Virus record (IMG/VR): IMGVR_UViG_3300037587_000561 | Coordinates: 1 to 30,849 of that record | DNA length: 30,849 nt | Origin: a virus | Reading direction: 5' to 3' (one strand) | Shown: in pieces, positions 5,652 through 17,341 of the stretch | How positions within the stretch are numbered: position 1 is the first letter of the stretch | How the letters are laid out: every line of letters begins with the position of its first letter | Translations under genes and position numbers: made by a program | The notes under the pieces: model-generated | Told to the model about the DNA's origin: nothing | Database searches by the model: none | The model's input: the letters and a program-made list of their open reading frames with translations, nothing else

Positions 5652-7973
5652 CTAATCCTTCTGATAACGTTCGTGTCGCCAGCCCGCGGCACGCAGGGGC
5701 CACCAGGCAGCCCACGCGGGGCGCTCTGACATTATGGCGGCCATTTCTTCAACTGATCCGAAGCCGTGCGGCACTTCCGCAACGCCCTCGTCGTGGGTGT
5801 GCATCACGATTGGGTACCCGCGCCCCTCGCAGCGCAGCAGCGCTTCGGCTTGGATATCGAGCGCAACAGCCTGCACCACATTTTCGAACAGTCGCCCGCC
5901 GTATGTCTCTAACCGGTGCCAGCCGGTCGGGCCTTTCGTACTGTTACTGTTGTGCCCCTCGAAAGTGATCTGATACGACGGGCCACGATTCAATTTATCG
6001 GCTACTGACGCCAGGCGCGGGCGGTGGTAGTGCAGATAGCGCCCGGACGGTAGTCTGCAGAACAGAATGTCATCCCACACGCCATACGTGATGTCGATAT
6101 GGCTGAAGCACTGGCCGGGGTTCAGGATGGCTTTGATCGCTGCACCCTCCAAGCCGAACAGCTCCGGGCGGTAGTCCCACTTGCCGGGGCCGCACCACCG
6201 GAACTGCCCGCCCCACATGTCCTCGATCTCCGGCGATTCCGCCCGCCACTTGAGTACATCGGTTTTGATCTCAGCTTCGGTCATAAACTCGTCAGCACCG
6301 AAATTACACCACGCCCCGATCCAGCCGCCGTACCCGCCAGCCAGCTCGCGCACCTTGCCGATCGTCTTGCGGGCCGGGTGGTGCATGCCGTTGTCGCGCT
6401 TATACTGCAGGATCTCCTCGAATGGTATGCCGGTGGCGTTGGCGGCGCTCTGCTCGTAAATCTTACCGTGTCCGCTGAATATCTCGATTCGCCACTGACA
6501 CCGGGCCAGACAGGCGGCGGCAACTGCCTCGATCGCTGAGAAGTCGCAACAGATGAAGTCCTTGCCCGGCGCAGCTTTGAATAGCCCGCGCAGGCAACCA
6601 CACAGCAGCGCGATCGGGTCGCCCCATATCCGTTCAACTGTCGCCAGGTCGTGCGTGCGAATGTCGCCGATAGCCGCCTCAACGGCTTCGATCGTCCAGT
6701 CGGGCTGCTGCTCGATATCTACCCACTGGCCGCACCGTGGACAGCCGATACTCTCGATGTCGCGCCCGAACAGCCCTCCGCAGCTGCCACACCGGCACGA
6801 CTTCGGGCCTTTGGCGGTTACGTTCTGGAGCTGTGAGTTGCTGGCGTCGTCATCGGCTGCAGCGGAAGACCAGCGCCCGGTGCGGTCAGCCCCGCAGTAC
6901 ATGTATTGGTTGCGCAGGCGCCCGTCGGAGGACACCTGCAGCTTAATCTTTGCGAGCTTCTTAACATTGGCCGCGCCTAACGTCTGCCGGATCTCAAGCG
7001 TTCGCCGAGCGTCGCCTGTAACTGGCTGCCCGTCTATGCCTGACTTCAGCACGTCGTCGATCGTGTCCTTCGTCATGTTGGGCATATCGACGCCCTGCGC
7101 CGCGAGCCACACTTTCAATGCGGGCAGCTCAGATGCGGCCTGCACTGCGCCACTGGTTACGCTCGCCAGCTCTGCGCGGTACTTCTCTTCCGCCTGTCGC
7201 TGTATGTCGAGTGCCGCGTCCAGGGTCTGCACGTCAACCGGTACGCCCCGCGCGTTTATGGTCTGGTCCATCAGCCATACCGACCGCTCGTGCTCCGTCA
7301 GATCGGGCGTGCGGGCGCTGGCGTGGTCCTCTGTCATCACGTCAACGTCGCAGTACGCATAGAATGCCGTGAAGTCGTCCCACGCCGTGGCGGGCGTCCA
7401 GCGGTGCGCTGAACGGTTCTTCGTCGGAGTGTGGGGGCGTGTCAGCTTCTGGATCAGCCGTTTGCCGGCGCTGTCTTTGTCTGGCGTGCCGAGTACCTTG
7501 GCGGCGTTCGCCAGTGAGCCGGGCAGGCTGTGCCGGCGGGACTTCGCCATATCGCAATGACACTGCTCGATCTGCAGGACCGGCCAGCCGTAGAGGGGAA
7601 CACAGGCCATGTTCCAGATGTAGAACTCGAAGGCGGCATTCCACGCAGCGATCAGGCCGCCGTTGCGGATATGATCGAGCAGATCAACCGGATCGGGCGC
7701 GCCAGGGAACCAGCCCCGCCGCCCGCGCCCGTCTTTAAGGTCGTAATAGAGGCAGAGTACTTCCGTAGTGGGGTGCGCCGCGTAGTTAGGCGTGCCGACT
7801 ACCGGCAGACCGCCCTTGCCCTGTGCGCCGACGCCACGCACTCGGCCGTCTGGGTCGAAGGTGTACCCCGCCTCGCTGTACGTCTCGAAGTCCATCGAGG
7901 GGAGCACAGTCGAATGCGAGAGCGCGACCGGGATCTGAGTCCCGGCTGCGAGCAGTGTGGGGTCGGTGGTCAT
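5652..7973 (-). CDS. Family-A DNA polymerase with 3'-5' exonuclease domain
   Basis: This 773-residue replicative polymerase copies the phage genome. The N-terminal proofreading domain shows DFETYSE (residues 28-34), WNAAFE (111-116) and YCDVD (207-211), matching Exo I, II and III. TGRWSS (365-370) begins the polymerase core. Motif A is CDFSAIEA with D477, motif B is RKTIGKVRELAGGYGG with R535, K540 and Y548, and motif C is HTHDE with D728 and E729. Between the TGRWSS block and motif A lies a zinc ribbon, C395-x2-C398...C411-x2-C414, not found in PolI or T7 polymerase. There is no 5' nuclease domain. The ATG overlaps the stop of the upstream small gene (ATGA). A promoter at 8213-8245 leads this operon. 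Confidence 0.95.
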   Translation of the reverse strand: MTTDPTLLAAGTQIPVALSHSTVLPSMDFETYSEAGYTFDPDGRVRGVGAQGKGGLPVVGTPNYAAHPTTEVLCLYYDLKDGRGRRGWFPGAPDPVDLLDHIRNGGLIAAWNAAFEFYIWNMACVPLYGWPVLQIEQCHCDMAKSRRHSLPGSLANAAKVLGTPDKDSAGKRLIQKLTRPHTPTKNRSAHRWTPATAWDDFTAFYAYCDVDVMTEDHASARTPDLTEHERSVWLMDQTINARGVPVDVQTLDAALDIQRQAEEKYRAELASVTSGAVQAASELPALKVWLAAQGVDMPNMTKDTIDDVLKSGIDGQPVTGDARRTLEIRQTLGAANVKKLAKIKLQVSSDGRLRNQYMYCGADRTGRWSSAAADDDASNSQLQNVTAKGPKSCRCGSCGGLFGRDIESIGCPRCGQWVDIEQQPDWTIEAVEAAIGDIRTHDLATVERIWGDPIALLCGCLRGLFKAAPGKDFICCDFSAIEAVAAACLARCQWRIEIFSGHGKIYEQSAANATGIPFEEILQYKRDNGMHHPARKTIGKVRELAGGYGGWIGAWCNFGADEFMTEAEIKTDVLKWRAESPEIEDMWGGQFRWCGPGKWDYRPELFGLEGAAIKAILNPGQCFSHIDITYGVWDDILFCRLPSGRYLHYHRPRLASVADKLNRGPSYQITFEGHNSNSTKGPTGWHRLETYGGRLFENVVQAVALDIQAEALLRCEGRGYPIVMHTHDEGVAEVPHGFGSVEEMAAIMSERPAWAAWWPLRAAGWRHERYQKD

Positions 7974-8179
7974 CGGGCGGCCGCCAGTGACTGGTCATTA
8001 GACACCGGGAAAGAGATCGCACGGCAAACTGGATGGGGCGGAGGGCAGTACGGGGTGCCGGGGCGCAGACTCTCCCGATACTTCTGGTGGTGCGTGCGCG
8101 TGGCAAACCGCCACCAGTACCCGCCGGCACGTACAAAATGTGGGTGGAAGTTGTCGCCGTTATACATTTTAAGTTCCAT
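7970..8179 (-). CDS. Small hypothetical protein leading the polymerase operon
   Basis: The 69-residue product starts at ATG 8179; a longer reading from TTG 8242 is rejected because it begins inside the promoter. The sequence is aromatic and histidine-rich (MYNGDNFHPHFVRAGGYWW), then basic, with a PYCPPPHP stretch. No family is recognised. Its stop overlaps the polymerase start (ATGA), so polymerase translation is probably coupled to it. The ribosome site is weak, which could keep polymerase output low. No membrane segment or known motif is present. Confidence 0.55.
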   Translation of the reverse strand: MELKMYNGDNFHPHFVRAGGYWWRFATRTHHQKYRESLRPGTPYCPPPHPVCRAISFPVSNDQSLAAAR

Positions 8180-8212: not shown

Positions 8213-8245
8213 ACTGTAGCAACTAACTGACAATACTGTCAACTA
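8213..8245 (-). promoter_or_regulatory. Promoter with embedded palindromic operator (polymerase operon)
   Basis: Reading the minus strand, TAGTTGACA (8245-8237) is followed by nine bases and GTTAG (8227-8223). The TTGACA acts as -35 (8242-8237), with an 18-base spacer to TACAGT (8218-8213) as -10. Inside lies the palindrome TGACA-N4-TGTCA at 8228-8241. The initial TAG is also the stop codon of the upstream membrane-protein gene. The same TAGTTGACA-N9-GTTAG element occurs at 11749-11771 (minus) and 15381-15403 (plus). The predicted start of transcription near 8206 precedes the ATG at 8179. Confidence 0.65.
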
Positions 8246-8548
8246 GCGTTTACTCGGTACGAGGGGGATATCAAGAAACTTCCCGAGCCACTCGAATACC
8301 GAGCTGGCGCAGTCGAACACTAGCGCGAATAAGTTAATCGCAGGAGTGACGGAGCAGATCGCCCACCAAACTATTAAGCCAACCGTCAACCCCGGTTTGT
8401 AGTGGTCGTCCCCCGGTTTGCCCAAGTCGCTTTTATACATGCCGATAGCTCGGAACAGGTACACCGGCATACATACCGCCAGGGGTATCCAGTAGACGAA
8501 TAGTGCCAGCATGCTCATGAATTGAAAACTCGTTACATAGTCGATCAT
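8243..8548 (-). CDS. Membrane protein of unknown function
   Basis: This 101-residue protein starts at ATG 8548. Hydrophobic segments lie at about residues 9-34 (MSMLALFVYWIPLAVCMPVY) and 53-80, separated by a polar loop with KSDLGKPGDD. It ends in a basic VPSKR tail. Two or three membrane spans are likely. No family is recognised. It follows the single-strand-binding protein gene and a terminator-like hairpin, and its stop codon lies in the promoter of the polymerase operon. It might be a superinfection-exclusion-type membrane protein, but nothing specific supports that. Confidence 0.55.
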   Translation of the reverse strand: MIDYVTSFQFMSMLALFVYWIPLAVCMPVYLFRAIGMYKSDLGKPGDDHYKPGLTVGLIVWWAICSVTPAINLFALVFDCASSVFEWLGKFLDIPLVPSKR

Positions 8549-8576
8549 AACTCTGGTGCCCCGGTATATGCGTAAA

Positions 8577-8606
8577 GGGCCGCCCCGCTAAACAAGCCAG
8601 GGCGGC
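8577..8606 (-). terminator. Terminator-like hairpin after the SSB gene
   Basis: On the minus strand GCCGCCC (8606-8600) can pair with GGGCGGC (8585-8579) across a 14-base loop, giving a seven-base-pair GC stem. It is followed only by CCTTT, so the U-tract is poor. It lies eight bases after the end of the single-strand-binding protein gene and before the membrane-protein gene. It may partly terminate or protect the mRNA end. The coat-protein terminator at 29892-29918 uses the same stem sequence. Confidence 0.4.
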
Positions 8607-8613
8607 GGGTTGG

Positions 8614-9486
8614 TTACTGCTGCGGAAGGAAGTTATGCGCCTGCTGTGGTTGGCCTTGAGCCGGTTGCTGGTAGCCGCCCTGCGCTGGCTGTTGGCCTTG
8701 AGCCGGTTGCTGATAGCCGCCCTGCGCTGGCTGTTGGCCTTGAGCCGGTTGCTGATAGCCGCCCTGCGCTGGCTGTTGGCCTTGAGCCGGTTGCTGGTAG
8801 CCGCCCTGCGCTGGCTGTTGGCCTTGAGCCGGTTGCTGATAGCCGCCCTGCGCTGGCTGTTGGCCTTGAGCCGGTTGCTGATAGCCGCCCTGCGCTGGCT
8901 GTTGGCCTTGAGCCGGTTGCTGGTAGCCGCCCTGCGCTGGCTGTTGGGCCGCACCGCCACCGAACGCGCCAGAGGTGTCGATACCACTGCCGCCGAACTG
9001 TTGGCGCGGGGCGTTAGCGCTGGCGATGATTGAAAAACCATCCAGGCCGGTCGCGATGCCTTTGTTGCCCTTAGCGTCGTATTCGTAGCAGTGCACCAGC
9101 ACATCGACGCGCTGGCCGCCGTAGATCATCGCGGCGTACTGCATCGGGTCCATAAGCGCGCCAGTTGCCTCGTCGTGCACGTTCGGGATGCGCATTGTGT
9201 TGCAGTTCAGTACGGCCCAGCCCGTGTACAGGCCGTTAAACTCGGTGGGCTGCGCCTGGCCAATCGGCATACGACCGCCAGCCGGCAGAACGCCCGCGAA
9301 TTTCGACTGCTGCAGCGTGGCCTGGCTCAGCTGATTAAACAGCGCGAGGTCGGGGTTATTCGGATCGACTACGACTTTCAAGCTGTACTTCGGCTTACCG
9401 TCCGGCGTCTGGTCGGGGCTGGTGATGGCGTCCCACACTACGAAGCACCCTTCGATTTTTACGTGTTTCTCGTCAAATTGTGGCAT
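8614..9486 (-). CDS. DUF2815-type single-stranded DNA-binding protein with repeat tail
   Basis: Residues 1-160 match the DUF2815 family: an OB-like start (KIEGCFVVWDAI), PKYSLKVVVDP, the RIPNVHDEAT block and GGQRVDVLVHCYEYDAKGN, with a family ending GLDGFSIIA. DUF2815 proteins are predicted phage single-strand-binding proteins found beside DUF2800 and polymerase genes, as here. Residues 181-278 are seven exact copies of the 14-residue unit QQPAQGGYQQPAQG. The protein closes with a Gln/Pro-rich end rather than the acidic tip of bacterial SSB. The repeat tail is probably disordered and could favour protein contacts or phase separation, which is an inference. Start ATG 9486 follows the DUF2800 stop by two bases. 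Confidence 0.8.
   Translation of the reverse strand: MPQFDEKHVKIEGCFVVWDAITSPDQTPDGKPKYSLKVVVDPNNPDLALFNQLSQATLQQSKFAGVLPAGGRMPIGQAQPTEFNGLYTGWAVLNCNTMRIPNVHDEATGALMDPMQYAAMIYGGQRVDVLVHCYEYDAKGNKGIATGLDGFSIIASANAPRQQFGGSGIDTSGAFGGGAAQQPAQGGYQQPAQGQQPAQGGYQQPAQGQQPAQGGYQQPAQGQQPAQGGYQQPAQGQQPAQGGYQQPAQGQQPAQGGYQQPAQGQQPAQGGYQQPAQGQPQQAHNFLPQQ
8653..8946. repeat. Seven tandem 42-bp coding repeats
   Basis: Seven head-to-tail 42-base units encode the QQPAQGGYQQPAQG tail of the single-strand-binding protein. The units look identical except for the third base of the tyrosine codon. Across the array that base gives TAC, TAT, TAT, TAC, TAT, TAT, TAC, a period of three units (126 bases), as though a trimer had been duplicated. 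Because the unit length is a multiple of three, gain or loss of units keeps the frame, and several other frames stay open through the array. Confidence 0.97.
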
Positions 9487-9488
9487 AG

Positions 9489-10664
9489 CTACTTGCTCTT
9501 TTTGAACGCCTGCGCGGTGCGCGTATCTTCGGCGTTGATTAATTTCATGCCCGTCGGTTTACGGGCTGTTACGGTTTTCAGTACAGACTCAAACGCAGGC
9601 CGCATCGCTGCGGGTACCTTCGCTTTCGCCTGTGTGGGCGTGAGCACGCCCGGCTTTGCGATATCGGCATCGAATTGCCCGGCCAGGGCGATAGCCTGCG
9701 CGGCGGGCACTGACCAGTCAAGGTTGCCGAACTTAGACTGCAGCGCCAGGCCGGTGTCTGTCGCGCCATCGTTTATGCGGTACGTCAGTTCGTCGTGGAT
9801 CGCTTTGCTGCGCGCTTTGATGATCGTCTCGCCGACCTCCAGCAGCTTGCGCTCAACCGCCAGATCGGCGCCCGTCATCGTGTCGATCTGGTACGGCTCG
9901 TTCAAGTACGCAATGACGCTGTAGCCCGCACGGCGTGCCGTCGGACATCGGCCAACCGCAGCGCAGTCCCGGCAGTGCGTGCCCGCCGTAAACTTCGGGT
10001 TCGTCAGCGCTTCGAGTGCCATGCGCCGCAGATGCTCAAAGAAACGGTTGTACAGCTCGCTGAGCTGCACGCGCCACTCTTTGACCGGTCCGGCGCTGCT
10101 GTAGCTGAACGGCTGCACGATCCGCAAGACTACTGTCGTGTCCTCCGGCAGCCGCATCTCGTTAGCTAGCCCGAATACGTAATCAATCAGCTGCAAATGG
10201 TCGACCGGGCTGTGTTCGCGGTGGCCGTTCTTATGATCCCACACATAAAGCAGACCGTGGTCGGGCACAGGCACCGCGGTATCGAGAGTCCCCCAGTTCT
10301 CGGCGTGGATCTGCGGCATATGCACGCGGTGCTCGATCAGCATAGACCGCAGCGCGCCGTACTCCTGGCACACCGCCAGCACGTCGTCGACCCAGATCTG
10401 CGCGCCTTCCGCCATCTTGTCGTCAATCACCACGCCGTTCGGTGCGGTCTCGCCGGTCAGGTCCGAGCAGAGCAGCGGTTGAACACCGTCAGATACCTGC
10501 GACGCGAACGACCGCAGCACCGTCTCGCCGTTCCAATGCGCCGCCGTGCCCTCGCGGCTGGCCTGCGTATCGAACTGCGGCACTGCGGCATTAGCTGGCA
10601 CCGACCCGGAGCAGTACCCCCACTGCGGGGCGCTGCTGGGTGCGAGTCGTGCGTGGGCGGACAT
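9489..10664 (-). CDS. DUF2800 protein, Cas4/RecB-like nuclease
   Basis: This 391-residue protein matches DUF2800, a phage family with a PD-(D/E)xK nuclease core. Visible elements are the opening HARLAPSSAPQWGYCSGS, the ASREGTAAH helix, the catalytic-type pair GTLDTAV...VWDHKNG (Asp then D-x-K), a QLIDYVFGLA helix and a cysteine cluster C-x2-C-x5-C in HCRDCAAVGRC. That cluster resembles the iron-sulfur knuckle of Cas4-like nucleases. The family is almost always next to a DUF2815 protein and a polymerase, suggesting a role in recombination or end processing during replication. The start overlaps the stop of the upstream gene by one base. Confidence 0.82.
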   Translation of the reverse strand: MSAHARLAPSSAPQWGYCSGSVPANAAVPQFDTQASREGTAAHWNGETVLRSFASQVSDGVQPLLCSDLTGETAPNGVVIDDKMAEGAQIWVDDVLAVCQEYGALRSMLIEHRVHMPQIHAENWGTLDTAVPVPDHGLLYVWDHKNGHREHSPVDHLQLIDYVFGLANEMRLPEDTTVVLRIVQPFSYSSAGPVKEWRVQLSELYNRFFEHLRRMALEALTNPKFTAGTHCRDCAAVGRCPTARRAGYSVIAYLNEPYQIDTMTGADLAVERKLLEVGETIIKARSKAIHDELTYRINDGATDTGLALQSKFGNLDWSVPAAQAIALAGQFDADIAKPGVLTPTQAKAKVPAAMRPAFESVLKTVTARKPTGMKLINAEDTRTAQAFKKSK

Positions 10665-11392
10665 TACGCGCCCGCCTTCGCTGACAGTGCGTTGTACAGA
10701 ACCGCTACGCGCTCTGCGATAACCGCGTCACCATTCGGCGGGAACAGGTCGGTGATGACCAGACTGGCCGTGGCGTAGGCTTCCGTAATATCCGCCTGCG
10801 TTAGCAGCCCGGCGGCCTGTTTCTTCGACGCCCAGCCCATAAAATCGCCGCACGTTGTCGGCGCGTGGGTGTGGACCGGTTCGGTGGTGGGAAACGCACC
10901 GGCGGTATCGACGGTGGTCTGCGCCGCACCCTGCTCCAGCTGCTCGGCGTACCACGCGTCATACGCCGCCTGATCGACGCCCTTGCGTTTCTTCCACTGG
11001 CCCGGCTGTTTACCTGACTCGTAGAACGGTTTTGCCGCTATGCCGCACATCGCCGCATTGAACGCTACGCCCTTGGGGTCGACTTGTGGCAGGGCGCCGT
11101 TGTCGGTCGCCTCGAACACAGAGCCGGGGCGGGTGCCGATCGCTACGTCGCCGGGGGGGTCGTAGGAGTCGCCAGACCCATCGAGGCTAGGCGCGTTAGG
11201 TTCTGGCGCAGCTGCCGCCGCGCCCAAGTCGGCAATCTGTTTACTGTTAGCGCCGCAGTCGCCAGGGCATTCGGTGGCTGTCGTTGGCGCAGGGCTGATC
11301 ACCAGTGCTCTGCCCTTTCCGATGGCCGTTAGTGCTTGACCGATCGCCAGTGCGATATCAGTCCGGTCGGCGGGGAATTCGATTTTGATCAT
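10664..11392 (-). CDS. Hypothetical protein with conserved C-terminal domain
   Basis: This 242-residue protein starts at ATG 11392 with a strong site (AGGAG, eight bases upstream). It has three parts: an N-terminal 35 residues with a helix, an Ala/Pro/Gly-rich linker holding a CPGDC motif, and a C-terminal domain. That domain contains KPFYESGKQPGQWKKRKGVD followed by YDAWYAEQL, which I recognise as recurring in phage hypothetical proteins without a known role. A final helix-rich segment follows. It is the second gene of the operon that encodes the DUF2800 protein and SSB, so a replication-accessory role is plausible but unproven. Confidence 0.6.
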   Translation of the reverse strand: MIKIEFPADRTDIALAIGQALTAIGKGRALVISPAPTTATECPGDCGANSKQIADLGAAAAAPEPNAPSLDGSGDSYDPPGDVAIGTRPGSVFEATDNGALPQVDPKGVAFNAAMCGIAAKPFYESGKQPGQWKKRKGVDQAAYDAWYAEQLEQGAAQTTVDTAGAFPTTEPVHTHAPTTCGDFMGWASKKQAAGLLTQADITEAYATASLVITDLFPPNGDAVIAERVAVLYNALSAKAGA

Positions 11393-11412
11393 CTTGTTTT
11401 GCTCCTGTTGGG

Positions 11413-11703
11413 TCAGAAAAGTTCTGAGGCTATCCGGTTGATGGTTTCATGCGCGGCTTCTACTTTGAGGCGGATGTCGTCCGAGGCAATGTTGAGGAAT
11501 TCGGCGAGAGATGGCGGGTTAGGGTTGATCGGCGCCGGCACGGGCTGGACCATCTCGTCGCCTTTATGCGGACTTGTTATCCGCTGCAGTAACGCCTCAA
11601 GTTCCGCCGTGACCGCATCGAACTCTCGGATGGCGTGCCATACGTCCGTGTGTCTGCTGGAGGGCGCAGGTACTTGGGCCGTCGCCAGGGTCGGGTGTTT
11701 CAT
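11413..11703 (-). CDS. Hypothetical helical protein, first gene of the DUF2800/SSB operon
   Basis: The chosen start is ATG 11703, with GGAG about nine bases upstream. The GTG at 11733 lies at the predicted transcription start and is rejected. The product is 96 residues, with an N-terminal polar part, a helix around HAIREFDAVTAELEALLQRI, a proline-rich linker (VQPVPAPINPNPP) and a C-terminal amphipathic helix LKVEAAHETINRIASELF. It may self-associate. No family is recognised. It directly follows the promoter at 11739-11771. Confidence 0.55.
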   Translation of the reverse strand: MKHPTLATAQVPAPSSRHTDVWHAIREFDAVTAELEALLQRITSPHKGDEMVQPVPAPINPNPPSLAEFLNIASDDIRLKVEAAHETINRIASELF

Positions 11704-11726
11704 CTTATGTTGCTCCGTGTTCGTTG

Positions 11727-11755
11727 TTGACACTGCGGATAATAGTTGCTAACTT
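11727..11755 (+). promoter_or_regulatory. Candidate rightward promoter, weak
   Basis: TTGACA at 11727-11732 is followed by 17 bases and TAACTT at 11750-11755. The -35 is perfect but the -10 is poor, and the N9-GTTAG part of the shared element is absent. It would drive the rightward operon starting at 11796 and overlaps the leftward promoter on the other strand, so use of one should interfere with the other. Confidence 0.35.
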
Positions 11756-11771
11756 TCCCACCTGTCAACTA
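11739..11771 (-). promoter_or_regulatory. Leftward promoter of the DUF2800/SSB operon
   Basis: On the minus strand TAGTTGACA (11771-11763), nine bases and GTTAG (11753-11749) repeat the element found at two other sites. TTGACA (11768-11763) with an 18-base spacer and TATTAT (11744-11739) make a near-consensus sigma70 promoter. The inner palindrome of the other two copies is missing here (the nine bases are GGTGGGAAA). Transcription would start near 11732, ahead of the ATG at 11703. Confidence 0.7.
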
Positions 11772-11795
11772 AATGTTTTAACGGAGTGCAGAAAG

Positions 11796-11966
11796 ATGAA
11801 GACAGCGGCCTGTATGTTCCTTGCCTTCTTTTCTACGTGCATATTCACGTACTACCTTGAGCCGGAAGTGATGCAAGCGCCGGGGGACGCTGCGGGTTGG
11901 GCTGCCGTCGGTATGGCGGGGGTTGCGGTATCTCTGGGCGCGTTCCTCGACTGGCTGACCGACTGA
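11796..11966 (+). CDS. Small membrane protein ahead of the helicase
   Basis: The start is ATG 11796, with GGAG about ten bases upstream; a longer upstream reading begins inside the promoter and is rejected. The 56-residue product has a hydrophobic N-terminus (CMFLAFFSTCIFTYY) and a second hydrophobic stretch (AAVGMAGVAVSLGAFLDWL), so probably two membrane spans. It is the first gene of the rightward operon, and its TGA overlaps the helicase ATG (TGATG). No family is recognised. Confidence 0.55.
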   Translation: MKTAACMFLAFFSTCIFTYYLEPEVMQAPGDAAGWAAVGMAGVAVSLGAFLDWLTD

Positions 11967-13615
11967 TGTCCTTTAACCTTCGCCCCTACCAGCAGACCGC
12001 TATCGCCGACGTGCGCGAGGCGTGGGCCAGGGTGCGCGCTGTGCTACTCGTGCTGCCGACTGGCGCAGGCAAGACCGTGGTGTTCAGCTCGATCATGCAC
12101 GACCACAAGGGCTGCGCGGCTGCTGTCGTCCACCGCAAGGAGATCGTCAGCCAGATCGCGTGCAGCCTGGCCCGCCTTGGCGTGAAGCACCGCGTTATCG
12201 CGCCGCCTAAGACCGTCGCATTGATCCGCCGCAAGCAGCTCAAGCTGTTCGGTAAGTCCTACGTCGACCCTAACGCGCAGTGTGGCGTGGTGTCGGTCCA
12301 GACCATGACCAGCCGCAGCAGCGAGAACGACACGGAGCTGCAGCGCTGGTTGCGCCAGGTGACGTTGTGCGTATTCGATGAGGGGCACCACTACGTGACG
12401 TCCGGGCTGTGGGCGCGGGCGGTCGAGGCGGTCGACCACGCTAAGATCTTGTTTGTCACCGCCACACCGGACCGGGCGGACGGCAAAGGACTCGGCGTGC
12501 ACGCGGACGGGTTTGCCGAAGTAATGATCGAAGGGCCGAGCCCAAAATGGTTGATCGATCGGGGGTTTCTGTGCCGGTTCACTTATAAGGCGCCGGATAC
12601 CGACCTTGATGTACGCGGCCTGGCCATAACGGCATCAGGGGATTTCAACCCTAAAGCACTGCGGACGCGGATTGTCGAATCCCATATTGTGGGCCACGTA
12701 GTGCAACAGTACCGGAAGTTTGCGGACGGTAAACGGGCAATCGTATTTGCGTCAGATGTCGAGACGGCAGAGGACTTGGCGGCGGCATTCCGCGCTGACG
12801 GTATCGGGGCGGTATCGCTCAACGGCAAAACGGACCAGGCCGAACGCGATCGGGAGCTGGCCCGGTTTGAGTGTGGCGACCTCGATGTGCTGGTAAATGT
12901 CGGGCTGTTCGATGAGGGTTTCGACGTCCCCGCTGTGGAGTGCGTTATCCAGGCGGCCCCGACGATGTCCCTCGCCAAATACCTGCAGATGGTAGGGCGC
13001 GGGCTGCGGATCATGGACGGCAAAACCGAAGCCGTGATCATCGACCCAGTGCGCAACTGGGAGCGCCACGGCATGCCGAATTGGCCGCGCAATTGGACGC
13101 TCGATGGGCGGGAACGCGGCACCGGCAGCAAGTCCGACACCATACCGCAACGCGTCTGCCTCGGTTGCACGCAGCCCTATGAAGCGTATTACACCGCCTG
13201 CCCGTACTGCGGCACGGTGCCAGTGCCTGCGGGCCGATCGGTACCGGAGCAAGTCGAGGGCGATCTGATGGAACTGGACGTTGACGGCATGGCGGCGCTG
13301 TTTGAGAAGATCGACGCGGCAAAGATGTCGGACGAGGCGTACGTACTCGACATGATCGGGCGTAACGTGCCGCCGAAGGGGCGCTCAACTGAACTTAAAC
13401 GGCATCAACGGGCGAACTACCGCCGGGGCGTACTGAAAGAGCTAGTCGCGTGGTGGGTCGGCATGCAGCCGGACGGCAGAGAGCTGGCGGAGAAGCACCG
13501 CCGGTTCTTCCACCGGTTCGGCACAGATATTGGGACGGCGTTCACTCTGAACGCTAACGACACAGATGCGCTGATCGCTACGATTCAGCGCCGATTTGCA
13601 GAGGACATGATCTGA
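11966..13615 (+). CDS. SF2 DEAD/DEAH-type helicase with zinc ribbon
   Basis: This 549-residue protein is an ATP-dependent superfamily 2 helicase. Motifs in order: LRPYQQ (Q-like, 5-10), PTGAGKT Walker A (31-37), VHRKEI (55-60), VQTMTS, DEGH motif II (138-141), VTATPDR motif III (164-170), FASDVETAEDL, DEGFDVP motif V (316-322) and QMVGRGLR motif VI (341-348). After the helicase core comes a zinc ribbon, C398-x2-C401-x10-C412-x2-C415, then an alpha-helical tail. Such proteins in phage replication clusters are thought to open replication or recombination intermediates. The start overlaps the previous stop, and the next gene overlaps its own stop. The same zinc knuckle reappears in the next gene. 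Confidence 0.92.
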   Translation: MSFNLRPYQQTAIADVREAWARVRAVLLVLPTGAGKTVVFSSIMHDHKGCAAAVVHRKEIVSQIACSLARLGVKHRVIAPPKTVALIRRKQLKLFGKSYVDPNAQCGVVSVQTMTSRSSENDTELQRWLRQVTLCVFDEGHHYVTSGLWARAVEAVDHAKILFVTATPDRADGKGLGVHADGFAEVMIEGPSPKWLIDRGFLCRFTYKAPDTDLDVRGLAITASGDFNPKALRTRIVESHIVGHVVQQYRKFADGKRAIVFASDVETAEDLAAAFRADGIGAVSLNGKTDQAERDRELARFECGDLDVLVNVGLFDEGFDVPAVECVIQAAPTMSLAKYLQMVGRGLRIMDGKTEAVIIDPVRNWERHGMPNWPRNWTLDGRERGTGSKSDTIPQRVCLGCTQPYEAYYTACPYCGTVPVPAGRSVPEQVEGDLMELDVDGMAALFEKIDAAKMSDEAYVLDMIGRNVPPKGRSTELKRHQRANYRRGVLKELVAWWVGMQPDGRELAEKHRRFFHRFGTDIGTAFTLNANDTDALIATIQRRFAEDMI

Positions 13616-14229
13616 TGAGCATAGGACAGGAGCTAGCCACGTTACGGAAAGCGTATGACCTGAGCAACGCCACAAATTCGAGGTTGGTCGCGCAGATCGA
13701 CGGTTTGCAGAAAGCCGAGAAAGAAACTGGCGAAGCATACCTACGTCTGCGCGGGATTCTGGGGGCTTTCCGCACCCCGCACGCGCCGACATGCGAACAG
13801 GTGTGGGCGCATACCGAAGAACGGGCGCGGGAGCTGCAGGCGCAGGCGCACCGGTTGCGCTTGTGCGCAGAAGCGGCTCTGGGGGACTTGCACTACCTAC
13901 TCAACCACCAAAAAACGAACCTCGTTGACGGGTCGCGGCTGGCGGACGGGCAGGCCGCGCACGAGCTGTTGTGCGCAGTGCAGGAAACCCCCGCCCAATC
14001 CGTCGCGCATATCGAGGCGGCGGTGTTGCGGAGGGTGGCGGCTCTGCTGCGGCCCGTCACTGTTGAAAACGAGCACGATAACGGCTACGACACCGCGCTC
14101 TGCGACTTACTGGGCCAAGCCGACCGACTGGAGCGGGGCGAGGTAGACGTCACGGTGTGCGCTGAATGCGTACAGCCGTACGAGTCACACCGCTCGGCGT
14201 GCCCGTACTGTCTGGAGCGTGACGCATGA
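13615..14229 (+). CDS. Coiled-coil protein with C-terminal zinc ribbon
   Basis: The 204-residue product starts at ATG 13615, overlapping the helicase stop. Residues 1-50 are helical and probably coiled-coil (ELATLRKAYDLSNATNSRL...). The middle has further helices. A 15-residue block TPAQSVAHIEAAVLR near residue 125-139 is repeated exactly in the gene at 14711-15079, on 44 identical bases. The C-terminus carries C182-x2-C185-x10-C196-x2-C199, sharing QPYE and ACPYC with the helicase zinc ribbon in identical spacing. The protein may interact with the helicase or DNA. No family is recognised. Confidence 0.6.
   Translation: MSIGQELATLRKAYDLSNATNSRLVAQIDGLQKAEKETGEAYLRLRGILGAFRTPHAPTCEQVWAHTEERARELQAQAHRLRLCAEAALGDLHYLLNHQKTNLVDGSRLADGQAAHELLCAVQETPAQSVAHIEAAVLRRVAALLRPVTVENEHDNGYDTALCDLLGQADRLERGEVDVTVCAECVQPYESHRSACPYCLERDA
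13987..14030 (+). repeat. 44-bp direct repeat, copy 1
   Basis: These 44 bases recur without change at 14909-14952, about 0.9 kb away, in the same orientation and reading frame. They encode TPAQSVAHIEAAVLR in two different proteins. Flanking bases differ at once on both sides. Exact identity at the third codon positions points to recent duplication or gene conversion rather than ancient homology. Confidence 0.95.
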
Positions 14230-14714
14230 CCGCCTACGCCGACTGGGCCTCTCGGCACCCGCAAGCCGCTGCAGAGCTGGGCCAGCTGCTCGGCGCTATG
14301 CCGTGGCCAGCGGACAGCCGCACAGACGGCAAGTCGGAGGCGTGGGCGCAGCAGCGTGTGCGGCTGAATTTCGCCAAGCAGGGCGGCATGTCCTGGCGGA
14401 ATAACGTGGGCGCCACACCAGCCCGCTGCCCCGACTGCAACGCGCCGCAGCGCCCGGTGCGGTATGGCATGGCCAATGACTCGCACCAGTTAAATGAGGT
14501 CATCAAGTCATCCGACCTGATCGGGGCCGTTCCGCGACTGATCACACCGGCCCACGTCGGTAGCACGATCGCACAATTCGCGGCAGTCGAGGCAAAGCGC
14601 CCCGGCTGGGCGTTCAGCAACACAAAACACGAGCAGGCGCAGGCCGCCTGGCTCGCAATGGTCGCCCGGCTGGGCGGCTTCGCAACATTCAGCACTGGAG
14701 ATGTAGAACTATGA
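14226..14714 (+). CDS. VRR-NUC domain nuclease
   Basis: This 162-residue protein starts at ATG 14226 (ATGA overlap) and ends overlapping the next ATG. After an acidic/aromatic N-terminus and the helix SEAWAQQRVRLNFAKQGG, it has a C-x2-C pair (ARCPDCNAP). The catalytic region shows SSDLIGAVPRLI (Asp), FAAVEAKRPGW (E-x-K) and then HEQAQAAWLAMVARLGG with the conserved Gln/Trp. This is the VRR-NUC fold of PD-(D/E)xK nucleases, found in phage Holliday-junction or branched-DNA resolvases. It may resolve replication or recombination branches before packaging. Confidence 0.78.
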   Translation: MTAYADWASRHPQAAAELGQLLGAMPWPADSRTDGKSEAWAQQRVRLNFAKQGGMSWRNNVGATPARCPDCNAPQRPVRYGMANDSHQLNEVIKSSDLIGAVPRLITPAHVGSTIAQFAAVEAKRPGWAFSNTKHEQAQAAWLAMVARLGGFATFSTGDVEL

Positions 14715-15079
14715 GCGTGAATCTGATAGAAGAAATACGGCGGCTAGAACGGGAGCACACGACCATTTGCAGAAAGCTGGCGACTGAGCGTGACGAACTA
14801 CAGGCGCGCGTGGGTGAACTGGAGGCGGCCGTCGGTAGCTACCTGCAGGACCACCAACACATGAGCGCCGAGCACTTTTGTGCGGTGTTCCACGATGTGG
14901 CGCGGCGCACCCCCGCCCAATCCGTCGCGCATATCGAGGCGGCGGTGTTGCGTTGGTTCTGCGAAGAGATGGAAGGCAAAGCCCTGTACGTGGGCGGTGA
15001 CGCGACCGGGGGCGTGCTATGGATCTGTAAGAAAGGCCGGGAACGCGCTGACCGCATTGAACAGGGGGCTAGATCATGA
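14711..15079 (+). CDS. Coiled-coil hypothetical protein
   Basis: The 122-residue product starts at ATG 14711 inside an ATGA overlap and ends overlapping the TetR-like gene. Residues 4-42 form a likely coiled coil (EEIRRLEREHTTICRKLATE and on). The block TPAQSVAHIEAAVLR at about residues 67-81 is shared, base for base, with the gene at 13615-14229. The C-terminal part has a beta-rich stretch GKALYVGGDATGGVLWICKKG followed by a helix. No family is recognised. It may bind the same partner as the other protein through the shared block. Confidence 0.55.
   Translation: MSVNLIEEIRRLEREHTTICRKLATERDELQARVGELEAAVGSYLQDHQHMSAEHFCAVFHDVARRTPAQSVAHIEAAVLRWFCEEMEGKALYVGGDATGGVLWICKKGRERADRIEQGARS
14909..14952 (+). 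repeat. 44-bp direct repeat, copy 2
   Basis: Second copy of the 44-base sequence at 13987-14030, identical and in the same reading frame. It lies in the middle of the gene at 14711-15079 and encodes the same 15 residues, TPAQSVAHIEAAVLR. Confidence 0.95.
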
Positions 15080-15387
15080 CCGACAAACAGGTAAGACTGA
15101 AACCCGAAGTGCGCCGCGAGGATATCCTGGCGGCAGCGTTCGCCCTGGCCGCTAAAGGCCATTACCAGCACTTGACGCGCAACCAGGTCGCAGAGGCGGC
15201 GGGTATCAGCGGCCCCGCGGTGCTGTACCACTTCAAGAGCATGGACAAGCTGCGCCGAGATATCATGCGGGCCGCTATCGCGCGGGAGTTCCTGCCGGTG
15301 GTGGCGCAGGGTGTGGTGGCGCACGATCCGATCGCGCGGGATCTGCCCGGCGATCTGAGGGCACGGGCGATGGCGTCTGTTAGTTGA
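15076..15387 (+). CDS. TetR-like transcriptional regulator
   Basis: This 103-residue protein has the TetR N-terminal fold: the helix RREDILAAAFALAAK, then LTRNQVAEAAGISGPAVLYHF (split here as the helix-turn-helix), and KSMDKLRRDIMRAAI as helix 4. The ligand/dimer domain of full-length TetR proteins (about 190-220 residues) is nearly absent, which is usual for the short phage versions. Start ATG 15076 overlaps the previous stop. Its own TGA stop lies inside TAGTTGACA, the first part of the shared promoter, and inside the palindrome TGACA-N4-TGTCA at 15385-15398. That placement suggests it represses this and related promoters, which is an inference. Confidence 0.8.
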   Translation: MTDKQVRLKPEVRREDILAAAFALAAKGHYQHLTRNQVAEAAGISGPAVLYHFKSMDKLRRDIMRAAIAREFLPVVAQGVVAHDPIARDLPGDLRARAMASVS

Positions 15388-15412
15388 CAACACTGTCAGT
15401 TAGCGCTAGGCT
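15381..15412 (+). promoter_or_regulatory. Promoter with palindromic operator after the TetR-like gene
   Basis: TAGTTGACA (15381-15389), nine bases and GTTAG (15399-15403) repeat the element at 8223-8245 and 11749-11771. TTGACA (15384-15389) with a 17-base spacer and TAGGCT (15407-15412) make the promoter; the -10 is modest. The palindrome TGACA-N4-TGTCA spans 15385-15398. It precedes the gene at 15445, which has GAGG about ten bases before its ATG, and it overlaps the end of the TetR-like coding region. Confidence 0.65.
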
Positions 15413-15444
15413 TCACGTACTGACTAACAGACGAGGACGGGCAG

Positions 15445-15783
15445 ATGAAAGAGCTAGACGAGGCGCCGCTGCGCCAGAGCGAAGTCGTAGAAATTCGCGA
15501 AGTAATCCTGCGGCACAAGCAGTCCGAAGGGATGCGCGACTCGTTCCGCAAGGCGGCGAGTGACCTGGCGATTGAGGCGGGCGTGATCGCTGCGCCAGTC
15601 GACCGGGCCGCTGTGCTGGGAGACATCTATTTTTTGCAGCTACTGGCCGAGTCACAGCTGCGCATGCAGCGGCTGTCTGTGCGGTATGAGAAGCTGCGGG
15701 CCGCGGCTGTCGGTGTGCTGGAAGCGGACGGCAGCATTACCGCAACAGCCAGAGCTATCGAGGTGCTACGCGATGAAACGTAG
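15445..15783 (+). CDS. Hypothetical helical protein
   Basis: This 112-residue protein is the first gene after the promoter at 15381-15412 and has its own ribosome site (GAGGACGGG). It is almost entirely helical. A charged N-terminus, DFRKAASDLAIEAG-type helices and a C-terminal YEKLRAAAVGVLEADG..ATARAIEVLRDE segment are seen; that ending recalls the C-terminal part of phage Ead/Ea22-type small proteins. No membrane segment or catalytic motif is present. The function is unknown. Confidence 0.55.
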   Translation: MKELDEAPLRQSEVVEIREVILRHKQSEGMRDSFRKAASDLAIEAGVIAAPVDRAAVLGDIYFLQLLAESQLRMQRLSVRYEKLRAAAVGVLEADGSITATARAIEVLRDET

Positions 15784-15958
15784 CTTAATACTGATCGCGG
15801 TGATCGTGGCGACCGTGGCCGGCATCGTGTACGCGGACGGCGACGCCGTGGCGCTCGTGCTGCTGGTCTGGGGGTCGATGGTGCTGCCTGTGTGCTGGGC
15901 GTGGCGGCGGCTGTTTGACGAACTACTGGAGCGAGGTGCTGACGATGAGTGCATGTGA
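15773..15958 (+). CDS. Two-span small membrane protein
   Basis: The chosen start is ATG 15773, which overlaps the previous gene by eleven bases; a longer reading from 15686 lies wholly inside that gene and is rejected. The 61-residue product has an N-terminal span after MKRS (LILIAVIVATVAGIVYA), a short DGDA turn, a second span (VALVLLVWGSMVLPVCWAW) and an acidic tail. It is probably a small inner-membrane protein. No family is recognised. Confidence 0.55.
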   Translation: MKRSLILIAVIVATVAGIVYADGDAVALVLLVWGSMVLPVCWAWRRLFDELLERGADDECM

Positions 15959-16190
15959 TACGTGCAGGCGTGCAGGGCGTGACTGCCCGGTGTGGCCGCA
16001 GAAAACCGATGAGTGCGCCGAGTACCGGTTTGACGGGTGCAGGGCGTGGCGTAGTCCCGATCAGTTGCAATGCCCGCGTTGCGGTCTGGCGTGGGACGTA
16101 ACCGACCCGGAGCGCCCCGCGTGCCTTACGCCGCAGCAGTTCGGGCGTAAGGCACTGGCACAGCTACGGGCTGAAGTGGGGGATTTGTAA
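15945..16190 (+). CDS. Cysteine-rich probable zinc-binding protein
   Basis: The start is ATG 15945, with GAGGTG about eight bases upstream. The 81-residue product has many cysteines: C-x2-C in SACDTC, further cysteines at DCPVW, DECAEY and DGCRAW, and C-x2-C in CPRCGLAW. These could form two zinc sites. The C-terminal helix is RKALAQLRAEVGDL. No family is recognised. It ends one base into the following start (TAATG). A DNA- or protein-binding role is plausible. Confidence 0.55.
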   Translation: MSACDTCRRAGRDCPVWPQKTDECAEYRFDGCRAWRSPDQLQCPRCGLAWDVTDPERPACLTPQQFGRKALAQLRAEVGDL

Positions 16191-16504
16191 TGCCTGCCGT
16201 CAGGATCATGCCGAGTAGAAGACTGCTGCTGATGGCGTTGTATGAGGTGGGCTCGCAGCAGGTAGCAGCTCGACTCTTCGGCATCAGCAGAGATTTGATG
16301 TACGAGTGGTGCCGGCAGCGCCGCATAACTCGGGATTGCTACAGGCAGAAGCGCGACCAGTCAGTGGTCGACAGGCTGACCGCTGACGATGTGACGCTGA
16401 TCAGGCAGCTCGAAGAGACGATGACCGAATCTGAGGTCGCCGTGAAATTTGAGACATCAACCCGGGCGGTGCGGAGAATATGGCGGAGGGAAACGTGGAA
16501 GTGA
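16190..16504 (+). CDS. Helix-turn-helix DNA-binding protein
   Basis: This 104-residue protein overlaps the previous stop (TAATG). It seems to hold two helix-turn-helix units: about residues 14-45 (GSQQVAARLFGISRDLMYEW) and 66-103 (MTESEVAVKFETSTRAVRRIW). Both resemble homeodomain-like or sigma-type readers. It is basic overall and lacks any catalytic domain. It may regulate the neighbouring small-gene cluster. The fold is inferred from the residue pattern, not from a named family. Confidence 0.6.
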   Translation: MPAVRIMPSRRLLLMALYEVGSQQVAARLFGISRDLMYEWCRQRRITRDCYRQKRDQSVVDRLTADDVTLIRQLEETMTESEVAVKFETSTRAVRRIWRRETWK

Positions 16505-16641
16505 CCGCGACAACGGAGCGTTGCCCGAAATGCGGCAACACACACCTGGCGCTGTTGTCGGGTCAGAACACTAAACTATGCACCGACTGCGGGGCCGTCA
16601 TCGTATGGCGCCGTGGGCGCGGGCAGAGCGAGTATAGGTGA
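16495..16641 (+). CDS. 48-residue zinc-ribbon protein
   Basis: A short frame in the gap between two larger genes encodes C-x2-C (CPKCGNTHLAL) and a second C-x2-C (CTDCGAVIVW), a classic small zinc ribbon, then a basic end. I place the start at GTG 16495, which has GGAGG about five bases upstream. GTG 16501 overlaps the previous stop (GTGA), and ATG 16480 is also in frame. The TGA at 16639-16641 overlaps the next ATG. Such tiny ribbons are common in phages, with roles from transcription to DNA metabolism; none can be assigned. Confidence 0.65.
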   Translation: MEVTATTERCPKCGNTHLALLSGQNTKLCTDCGAVIVWRRGRGQSEYR

Positions 16642-17003
16642 TGAGTATGAACGATACGATCGAGGATATCGTGGCGACCCTACGTGGCGTCGCCGATGCT
16701 GTAGAGCTGTCCGGAGACCAGGAGCCGTACCCGAAGTTAGAGATAGAACAACATCTCGGGCGGGCTGTGCTGCGGCTGAAGATGGATGGGAGCCCCGACG
16801 GCATACGTGCGCGGGCCGATCGGCTGCTGAAGCAATCAAAAAGCCGAACAATCGGAGGCACGCCAGGCTTCAAGGCTATGCGCAGCGCGTCTAAATACCG
16901 CCCCTCGATGGGCAGGGCGAAGTGGTCGACGAGAGTGGAGCGGCAGTTCCTCGATGATGGCGAGTCAGATAACTGCGCGGCCTACCGGGAACTGTTCGCG
17001 TGA
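16641..17003 (+). CDS. Hypothetical protein
   Basis: The start is ATG 16641 in a TGATG overlap; GTG 16638 and ATG 16647 are also in frame. The 120-residue product has an acidic helical first half (MNDTIEDIVATLRGVADAVE, LGRAVLRLKM) and a basic, probably flexible second half (SKSRTIGGTPGFKAMRSASK). It ends with an acidic helix. No known family is recognised. It ends overlapping the next GTG start. Confidence 0.5.
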   Translation: MSMNDTIEDIVATLRGVADAVELSGDQEPYPKLEIEQHLGRAVLRLKMDGSPDGIRARADRLLKQSKSRTIGGTPGFKAMRSASKYRPSMGRAKWSTRVERQFLDDGESDNCAAYRELFA

Positions 17004-17341
17004 CCCGCATACCCGCCCGCTGTAACCGTCGTGCCTGCCAGGCGCGGCGTAACCTGTCCAAACGACCCGAGCAGTATGTCAGGCCGCCCGTGTGCCATAC
17101 GGCGGGCTGTGACGGCTTGATGTACGTCGATGAGTACCGTTTACGTCGTGGCCCGCATGATCATGCGCCCGTCTGCCACGAAGGCTGTTTGCACGACTAC
17201 CAGACCGCGAACTACCCGCACGTTACAAGCGATAAACGCTGCCGTCACTACGAGGACTGGCTGGTCGAATCGACCGCCAGAGCGTCGAAGCACTCGCCGG
17301 GGTTTAGCCGGGTCGATGACGATGAGTCCTGTCCGTTCTAA
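17000..17341 (+). CDS. Cysteine/histidine-rich zinc-binding protein
   Basis: This 113-residue protein starts at GTG 17000 (GTGA overlap). It is basic and has several cysteine and histidine pairs: CNRRAC, C-x4-C in VCHTAGC, VCHEGCLHD and RCRHYEDW. Together they could bind one or two zinc ions. Similar proteins are frequent in phage early regions, without known function. It is the last gene of the rightward operon, and its stop directly abuts the stop of the next, leftward gene. Confidence 0.55.
   Translation: MTRIPARCNRRACQARRNLSKRPEQYVRPPVCHTAGCDGLMYVDEYRLRRGPHDHAPVCHEGCLHDYQTANYPHVTSDKRCRHYEDWLVESTARASKHSPGFSRVDDDESCPF

Follow-up and report, generated by a model that had tools for sequence, protein, structure and literature searches.

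Three operons of the phage in the window, i.e., the whole 30.8-kb stretch of DNA analyzed here (an IMG/VR virus record), are preceded by sequences that, judged from their letters, are real phage promoters in which the -35 box is part of a mirror-image site. This palindrome is probably the binding site of the phage's own small TetR-like protein. We consider it reasonably probable that these are host-sigma70 promoters in which the -35 box doubles as a half-site of a palindromic operator, bound and repressed by this TetR_N protein. One of the three promoters is also part of a face-to-face promoter pair that is conserved among related phages. AeroV_348, PY6, CKB-S1, SFCi1 and VP16T are among the relatives of the window. 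The window harbors genes for a family A polymerase, an Enc34-type SSB, a DUF2800 nuclease and a helicase, and also codes for a primase-helicase, a terminase and structural proteins; the features discussed below are listed in Table 1.

Table 1. Operons, promoters and candidate operators in the window (ORF starts based on simple rules)
Feature	Position	Strand	Details
Polymerase operon	5652..8179	-	small ORF 8179-7970; family A DNA polymerase 7973-5652
DUF2800/SSB operon	8243..11703	-	ORFs 11703-11413 and 11392-10664; DUF2800 10664-9489; Enc34-type SSB 9486-8614; last ORF 8548-8243
Helicase operon	11796..15387	+	small membrane ORF 11796-11966; helicase 11897-13615; 13615-14229; nuclease-like 14226-14714; 14711-15079; tetR last
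tetR	15076..15387	+	TetR_N-only; phrog_8723, 103 aa; ends the helicase operon; candidate regulator
Small-gene operon after tetR	15445..17341	+	3' of site 3; includes HTH protein 16190-16504
Site 1, palindrome CTAGTTGACAGTATTGTCAGTTAG (candidate operator)	8223..8246	-	over -35 of polymerase operon; 20/20
Site 2, degenerate palindrome TTAGTTGACAGGTGGGAAAGTTAG	11749..11772	-	over -35 of DUF2800/SSB operon; 17/20
Site 3, palindrome TTAGTTGACAACACTGTCAGTTAG	15380..15403	+	over -35 of post-tetR operon; includes tetR stop codon
Promoter 1	8213..8242	-	-35 TTGACA 8242-8237; spacer 18 bp; -10 TACAGT 8218-8213
Promoter 2a (to DUF2800/SSB operon)	11739..11768	-	-35 TTGACA 11768-11763; spacer 18 bp; -10 TATTAT 11744-11739
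Promoter 2b (to helicase/tetR operon)	11727..11755	+	-35 TTGACA 11727-11732; spacer 17 bp; extended -10 TGC-TAACTT
Promoter 3	15384..15412	+	-35 TTGACA 15384-15389; spacer 17 bp; -10 TAGGCT 15407-15412
Face-to-face divergent promoter TTGAC-N32-GTCAA	11727..11768	.	serves helicase and DUF2800/SSB operons

Promoters with the -35 box in a palindrome

A first-pass annotation of this DNA described three exact copies of an element, TAGTTGACA-N9-GTTAG, each located over a -35/-10 promoter and two of them containing the stop codon of the preceding gene, as a shared set of early promoters. The copies are present at 8245-8223 (-), 11771-11749 (-) and 15381-15403 (+), each with TTGACA followed 17-18 bp downstream by a -10 hexamer, and the stop codons are TAG (ORF 8548-8243) and TGA (tetR). 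Promoters 1, 2a, 2b and 3 all combine a TTGACA-like and a TATAAT-like hexamer 16-18 bp apart, i.e., the sigma70 arrangement. Promoter 2a agrees with the consensus at 11 of 12 positions, sites 1 and 3 have -10 boxes of only moderate quality, and promoter 3, with its weak TAGGCT, is absent from the list obtained in a consensus scan. The element is absent from shuffled sequence: a scan of the window with up to three mismatches gave 5 matches vs 1.17 expected, a number never reached in shuffles, and gapped 9+5 words in at least three copies numbered 4 over 11 gap sizes (counted with the SSB tandem repeat masked) vs a total of 1 in 10 dinucleotide shuffles. In related contigs it sits at promoters, with copies at orthologous places in the close relatives L009, L004, L007 and L131 and an additional copy ahead of another operon in L048; the pattern written backward gave 1 match among 13 contigs at up to two mismatches. 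The bare exact pattern was rejected as a specific marker because most of its IMG/VR matches are from unrelated phages: the 77 stretches (counts from some IMG/VR scans are "at least" values) include many ordinary TTGACA promoters, and only three contigs (L004/L108, L048 and L110) come from relatives.

The idea of a shared promoter set for the polymerase, DUF2800/SSB (plus helicase) and post-tetR operons is thus upheld by the sequence and the copies in relatives, and the set is presumed to be used early. What does not hold is the label of a promoter element, which is better replaced by that of a sigma70 -35 box inside a palindromic operator-like site, and the view of site 2 as a plain promoter copy, since this site forms a divergent pair together with a second, opposed promoter. 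The inner TGTCA, the opposed TTGACA at 11727-11732 (+) and the wider conservation had been overlooked. The nine variable bases consist of N4 and TGTCA at sites 1 and 3, where the whole is a 24-bp YTARYTGACA-N4-TGTCARYTAR. Because this entire element is palindromic, the TAG and GTTAG described earlier are the outer flanks of one symmetric site. Across the window, sites 1 and 3 score 20/20 by construction, because the 24-mer was derived from them, while site 2, which has lost the inner half (TGTCA), scores 17 and the next best place 14; the independent test of the palindrome is found in the relatives.

In the near group, TA-N2-TGAC-N6-GTCA-N2-TA occurs five times, as compared to zero for gaps of 5 or 7 and for flank spacings of 0, 1, 3 or 4; related loci have a common ancestry, i.e., these and the following counts are not numbers of independent events. 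The full sites, which number only five in this group, are sites 1 and 3 of the window, the polymerase promoter of L009 and the helicase/DUF2800 promoters of L007 and L131, all of which cover the -35 box of either a replication promoter or the promoter of the post-tetR operon. The counterpart of site 1 is found at position 6336 of L009 and, in degenerate form, at position 350 of L004. Whereas the inner N4 is variable, TGAC/GTCA and the symmetric TA pairs are preserved. The N6 palindrome was not overrepresented in the majority of the complete near relatives (VP16T, SFCi1, PY6, PD0307 and others), and the operator reading for the window therefore rests on the two perfect sites, their copy in L009, the sites in L007 and L131 and the parallel in Scuro (see below).

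Two other repeated structures were noted. A perfect 10-bp inverted repeat, GTCTGTTAGT/ACTAACAGAC, is found on either side of promoter 3 (15375-15384 and 15423-15432). In PY6 (L119), repeated TTGAC-containing elements with GTAGCG...CGCTAC palindromes are located at 7093, 12368, 19984 and 28180; at least two of these resemble promoters whose spacer contains the palindrome, perhaps another operator in PY6.

A face-to-face promoter between the helicase and DUF2800 operons

At site 2, promoter 2a faces promoter 2b, the extended -10 of which (hexamer 11750-11755) has the GTTAG of site 2 as its complement; this may be why GTTAG was kept here despite the loss of the inner TGTCA. Among 89 loci in which the helicase and DUF2800 genes diverge, a pair with 31-36 bp between the arms was found in 73 (62 unique sequences). 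Loci with the arms were picked by exact TTGAC/GTCAA, such that the arm letters are conserved by selection and the information is in spacing and interior. Gaps of 31-34 dominate and others are near background, except for gap 6, i.e., that of the operator. Of 28 near sequences, 20 have TAnnnT at a distance of 16-18 bp from each of the two arms, vs 0.13 (max 2) with shuffled interiors, and the divergent promoter is conserved down to 38% helicase identity. A profile search with the DUF2800 alignment A2 revealed no conserved stretch.

As deduced from their positions, these opposed promoters between divergent genes share a polymerase footprint, i.e., they are overlapping and divergent. Because the polymerase footprints must overlap, as argued for the pLS20 promoters Pc/Pr (PMC4207663), only one direction would be usable at a time; each -35 box is near the other's predicted start, and polymerase would be engaged in one direction at once. 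Since site 2 is part of a conserved opposed promoter pair, the replication genes could be controlled together. As in pLS20, opposed sigma70-type promoters are placed on the same DNA, with one used at once, and the operator of the regulator, a putative one in the phage, overlaps the promoters. In pLS20 the -35/-10 boxes of both promoters are proposed to coincide, whereas in the phage each -35 is near the other's start and the -10 boxes are in between (PMC4207663); also unlike pLS20, the phage pair has a TetR-type candidate regulator and an arrangement that numerous phages have retained. The pair further resembles symmetric bidirectional bacterial promoters, where a near-symmetric sequence drives both directions (PMC10268837). 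However, the typical bidirectional promoter has coinciding -10 elements and starts 18 bp apart, while the phage -10 boxes are non-overlapping, ~4 bp apart, with predicted starts ~30 bp apart (PMC10268837), i.e., the pair does not belong to the 18-bp symmetric type with reciprocal -7/-11.

The face-to-face arrangement also suggests an explanation without a regulator, where the sites are plain unregulated sigma70 promoters, copied from one ancestral cassette (the helicase/DUF2800 divergent promoter), with GTTAG left over from the opposed -10. We regard this explanation as unlikely. GTTAG is indeed within the opposed -10 both at site 2 and in several relatives, and CAACGAACA-GG is common to the leaders of sites 1 and 2, but neither site 1 nor site 3 has an opposed -35 in the right spacing, for which reason an antisense promoter was also rejected as the general cause of GTTAG, and TGAC/GTCA and the symmetric TA pairs are retained around a varying N4.

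The sister palindrome and the small TetR-type protein

In far relatives (helicase identity ~38-47%), which include the isolates Klebsiella phage KpV52, Edwardsiella phage MSW-3 and Acinetobacter phage Scuro, the palindrome has a sister form, TTGAC-N6-GTCAA, with TTATTGAC-N6-GTCAATAA as the predicted operator. In the far group it is found in 47 exact copies vs 0-3 at other gaps, and in the relatives in 51 exact copies vs 1-6 at other gaps and 1 in unrelated phages. The flanks are one base closer (TA-N1-TGAC-N6-GTCA-N1-TA, 30 copies vs 0 in controls), i.e., the flank spacing differs by clade within one replication-module family. A de novo palindrome search in the far relatives gave TGACG-N4-CGTCA (84 vs 1.9 expected) and TTGAC-N6-GTCAA (52 vs 1.5) in the top ranks, and single contigs hold 9, 7 or 4 sites, as compared to none for a reversed-motif control in 36 contigs. 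The association with promoters is also seen here: of 61 exact palindromes, 28 are combined with a -10 at a spacer of 16-18 bp (3-13 in other spacer windows), the -10 is spaced by exactly 17 bp in all five copies of the Scuro variant TTGACA-N4-TGTCA, which is the same as in the window, and in KpV52 the palindrome is found in four of the nine promoters annotated by the depositors. The clade-specific spacing and the enrichment at many unrelated promoters and before tetR further argue against copies of one ancestral cassette. That the palindrome instead is an iteron-like signal for replication or recombination appears highly improbable; all sites flank replication genes, but many copies are -35 boxes that have a -10 17-18 bp away and are closely followed by an ORF start, and the copies are dispersed, being found also upstream of tetR and other small operons. 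A scan of viral contigs with TATTGAC-N6-GTCAATA was abandoned because it gave mostly background among the matches listed. In L156, L159, L169 and L207, a conserved TTGACGG-ACCGTCAA is found in the final helicase codons (IDGTVNA), in L159 with a -10-like CATACT at 18 bp; this could be coding sequence or an internal promoter-operator.

The candidate binder of the palindrome is the product of tetR. It matches PF00440 (E 4.6e-09, above the cut-off), and its fold model (pLDDT 89) aligns with TetR-family repressors at Z 9-11, the search returning many TetR-family chains with none singled out. The protein is not a canonical TetR, as it does not have the C-terminal ligand-binding/dimerization domain of this family (total ~180-220 aa). 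Most relatives are 95-115 aa; some have 166-168 aa with an N-terminal extension (L126 38065-38565, L127 21424-21924, L142, L147-L150, L176 and others), where the extra ~65 aa may be a second, diverged HTH unit, while Pfam finds only the C-terminal TetR_N.

In far relatives, the palindrome often precedes the TetR_N-only gene of the same phage by ~58 bp. The interval -47 to -70 of tetR contains it in 16 of 87 non-redundant loci, as compared to 1 for gap 5 and 0 for gap 7; the same test gave 12 of 101 for the helicase gene, probably in part because of the divergent promoter, and 0-3 for the remaining genes. KpV52 and MSW-3, examined after the motif had been discovered, have an exact palindrome ~60 bp ahead of tetR, which in both is phrog_8723, and Scuro has a copy with one mismatch ahead of its tetR. 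In the window, no palindrome precedes tetR; site 3 is found just downstream, overlapping the stop codon. The recurrent position ~58 bp upstream of tetR points to possible autoregulation.

The palindrome could also be the operator of another protein, either one of two HTH proteins of the phage (16190-16504 and 21413-21607) or a host regulator of the TetR family with similar dyad operators, e.g., RutR or LuxR/HapR. The RutR consensus, TTGACCA-NN-TGGTCAA, resembles the phage palindrome. Dyad operators of ~16 and 21 bp are used by RutR and Vibrio (V.) harveyi LuxR (PMC10891134, PMC2628434). Another binder nevertheless seems doubtful at best, considering the position of the palindrome ~58 bp upstream of tetR in many phages, the shift of its flank spacing between clades of one replication-module family and the very diverse hosts (Vibrio, Shewanella, Klebsiella, Edwardsiella and Acinetobacter).

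TetR-type proteins bind as dimers to dyad operators (PMC2628434; PMC10891134), and dimer binding is assumed here because the TetR_N-only protein is devoid of the usual ligand-binding/dimerization domain. By analogy with TetR-family systems (PMC2628434, PMC10891134), we infer that the TetR_N protein is the binder and that it acts as a small repressor that shuts off the early promoters and, in far relatives, also its own. According to this model, host RNA polymerase would, upon infection, transcribe the polymerase, DUF2800/SSB, helicase and post-tetR operons, after which the 103-aa DNA-binding protein, encoded by the last gene of the helicase operon, would accumulate. Dimers on the palindromes would then cover the -35 boxes and turn down the promoters, with strong repression predicted at sites 1 and 3 and weak repression at the decayed site 2.

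Relation to other regulators and wider implications

The proposed system has in common with TetR, QacR, RutR and V. harveyi LuxR a TetR_N helix-turn-helix and a (here putative) dyad operator over a promoter; as in autoregulated TetR-family systems, a candidate operator copy precedes the gene of the regulator itself in some far relatives. Unlike these four regulators, the protein is phage-encoded, ~100 aa and without a ligand domain, and its presumed operator, with a half-site that is also the -35 box, recurs over several phage operons. Phage Cro/CI are also small DNA-binding phage proteins with dispersed operators over early promoters, but the fold here is TetR_N rather than lambda-repressor/Cro, and no lysogeny module is seen in the window.

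Whether the VP16T-like, Jedunavirus, Yokohamavirus and Scuro-like phages, a large group, share this combination for the control of their replication genes, i.e., a stand-alone TetR DNA-binding domain whose operator half-site is the -35 box and a deeply conserved, mutually exclusive face-to-face promoter between the helicase and DUF2800/SSB operons, is in our judgment an even call. If true, it would be a lytic-cycle repressor circuit that is undescribed for these phages in the searchable literature, where nothing relevant was found on VP16T, Jedunavirus or phage TetR control, nor any published transcription program for these phages. Regulator, operator and target promoters are predicted from sequence alone, also for the isolated Klebsiella, Edwardsiella and Acinetobacter phages. 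The naturally conserved face-to-face promoter could serve as a model for how RNA polymerase chooses between overlapping directions, and the phages would offer a minimal TetR DNA-binding module without ligand domain.

Three additional features of the window were observed. The region encoding the C-terminus of the SSB (8607-8989) consists of seven 42-bp tandem repeats (QPAQG.../GGYQ), exactly 42 bp from start to start. In the helicase operon, a 44-nt sequence, TPAQSVAHIEAAVLR, is exactly duplicated in two different ORFs (13987-14030 and 14909-14952). Between an Xis-like HTH_17 gene and that of the terminase small subunit, the intergenic segment 21825-21900 is very AT-rich in a genome with 60% GC.
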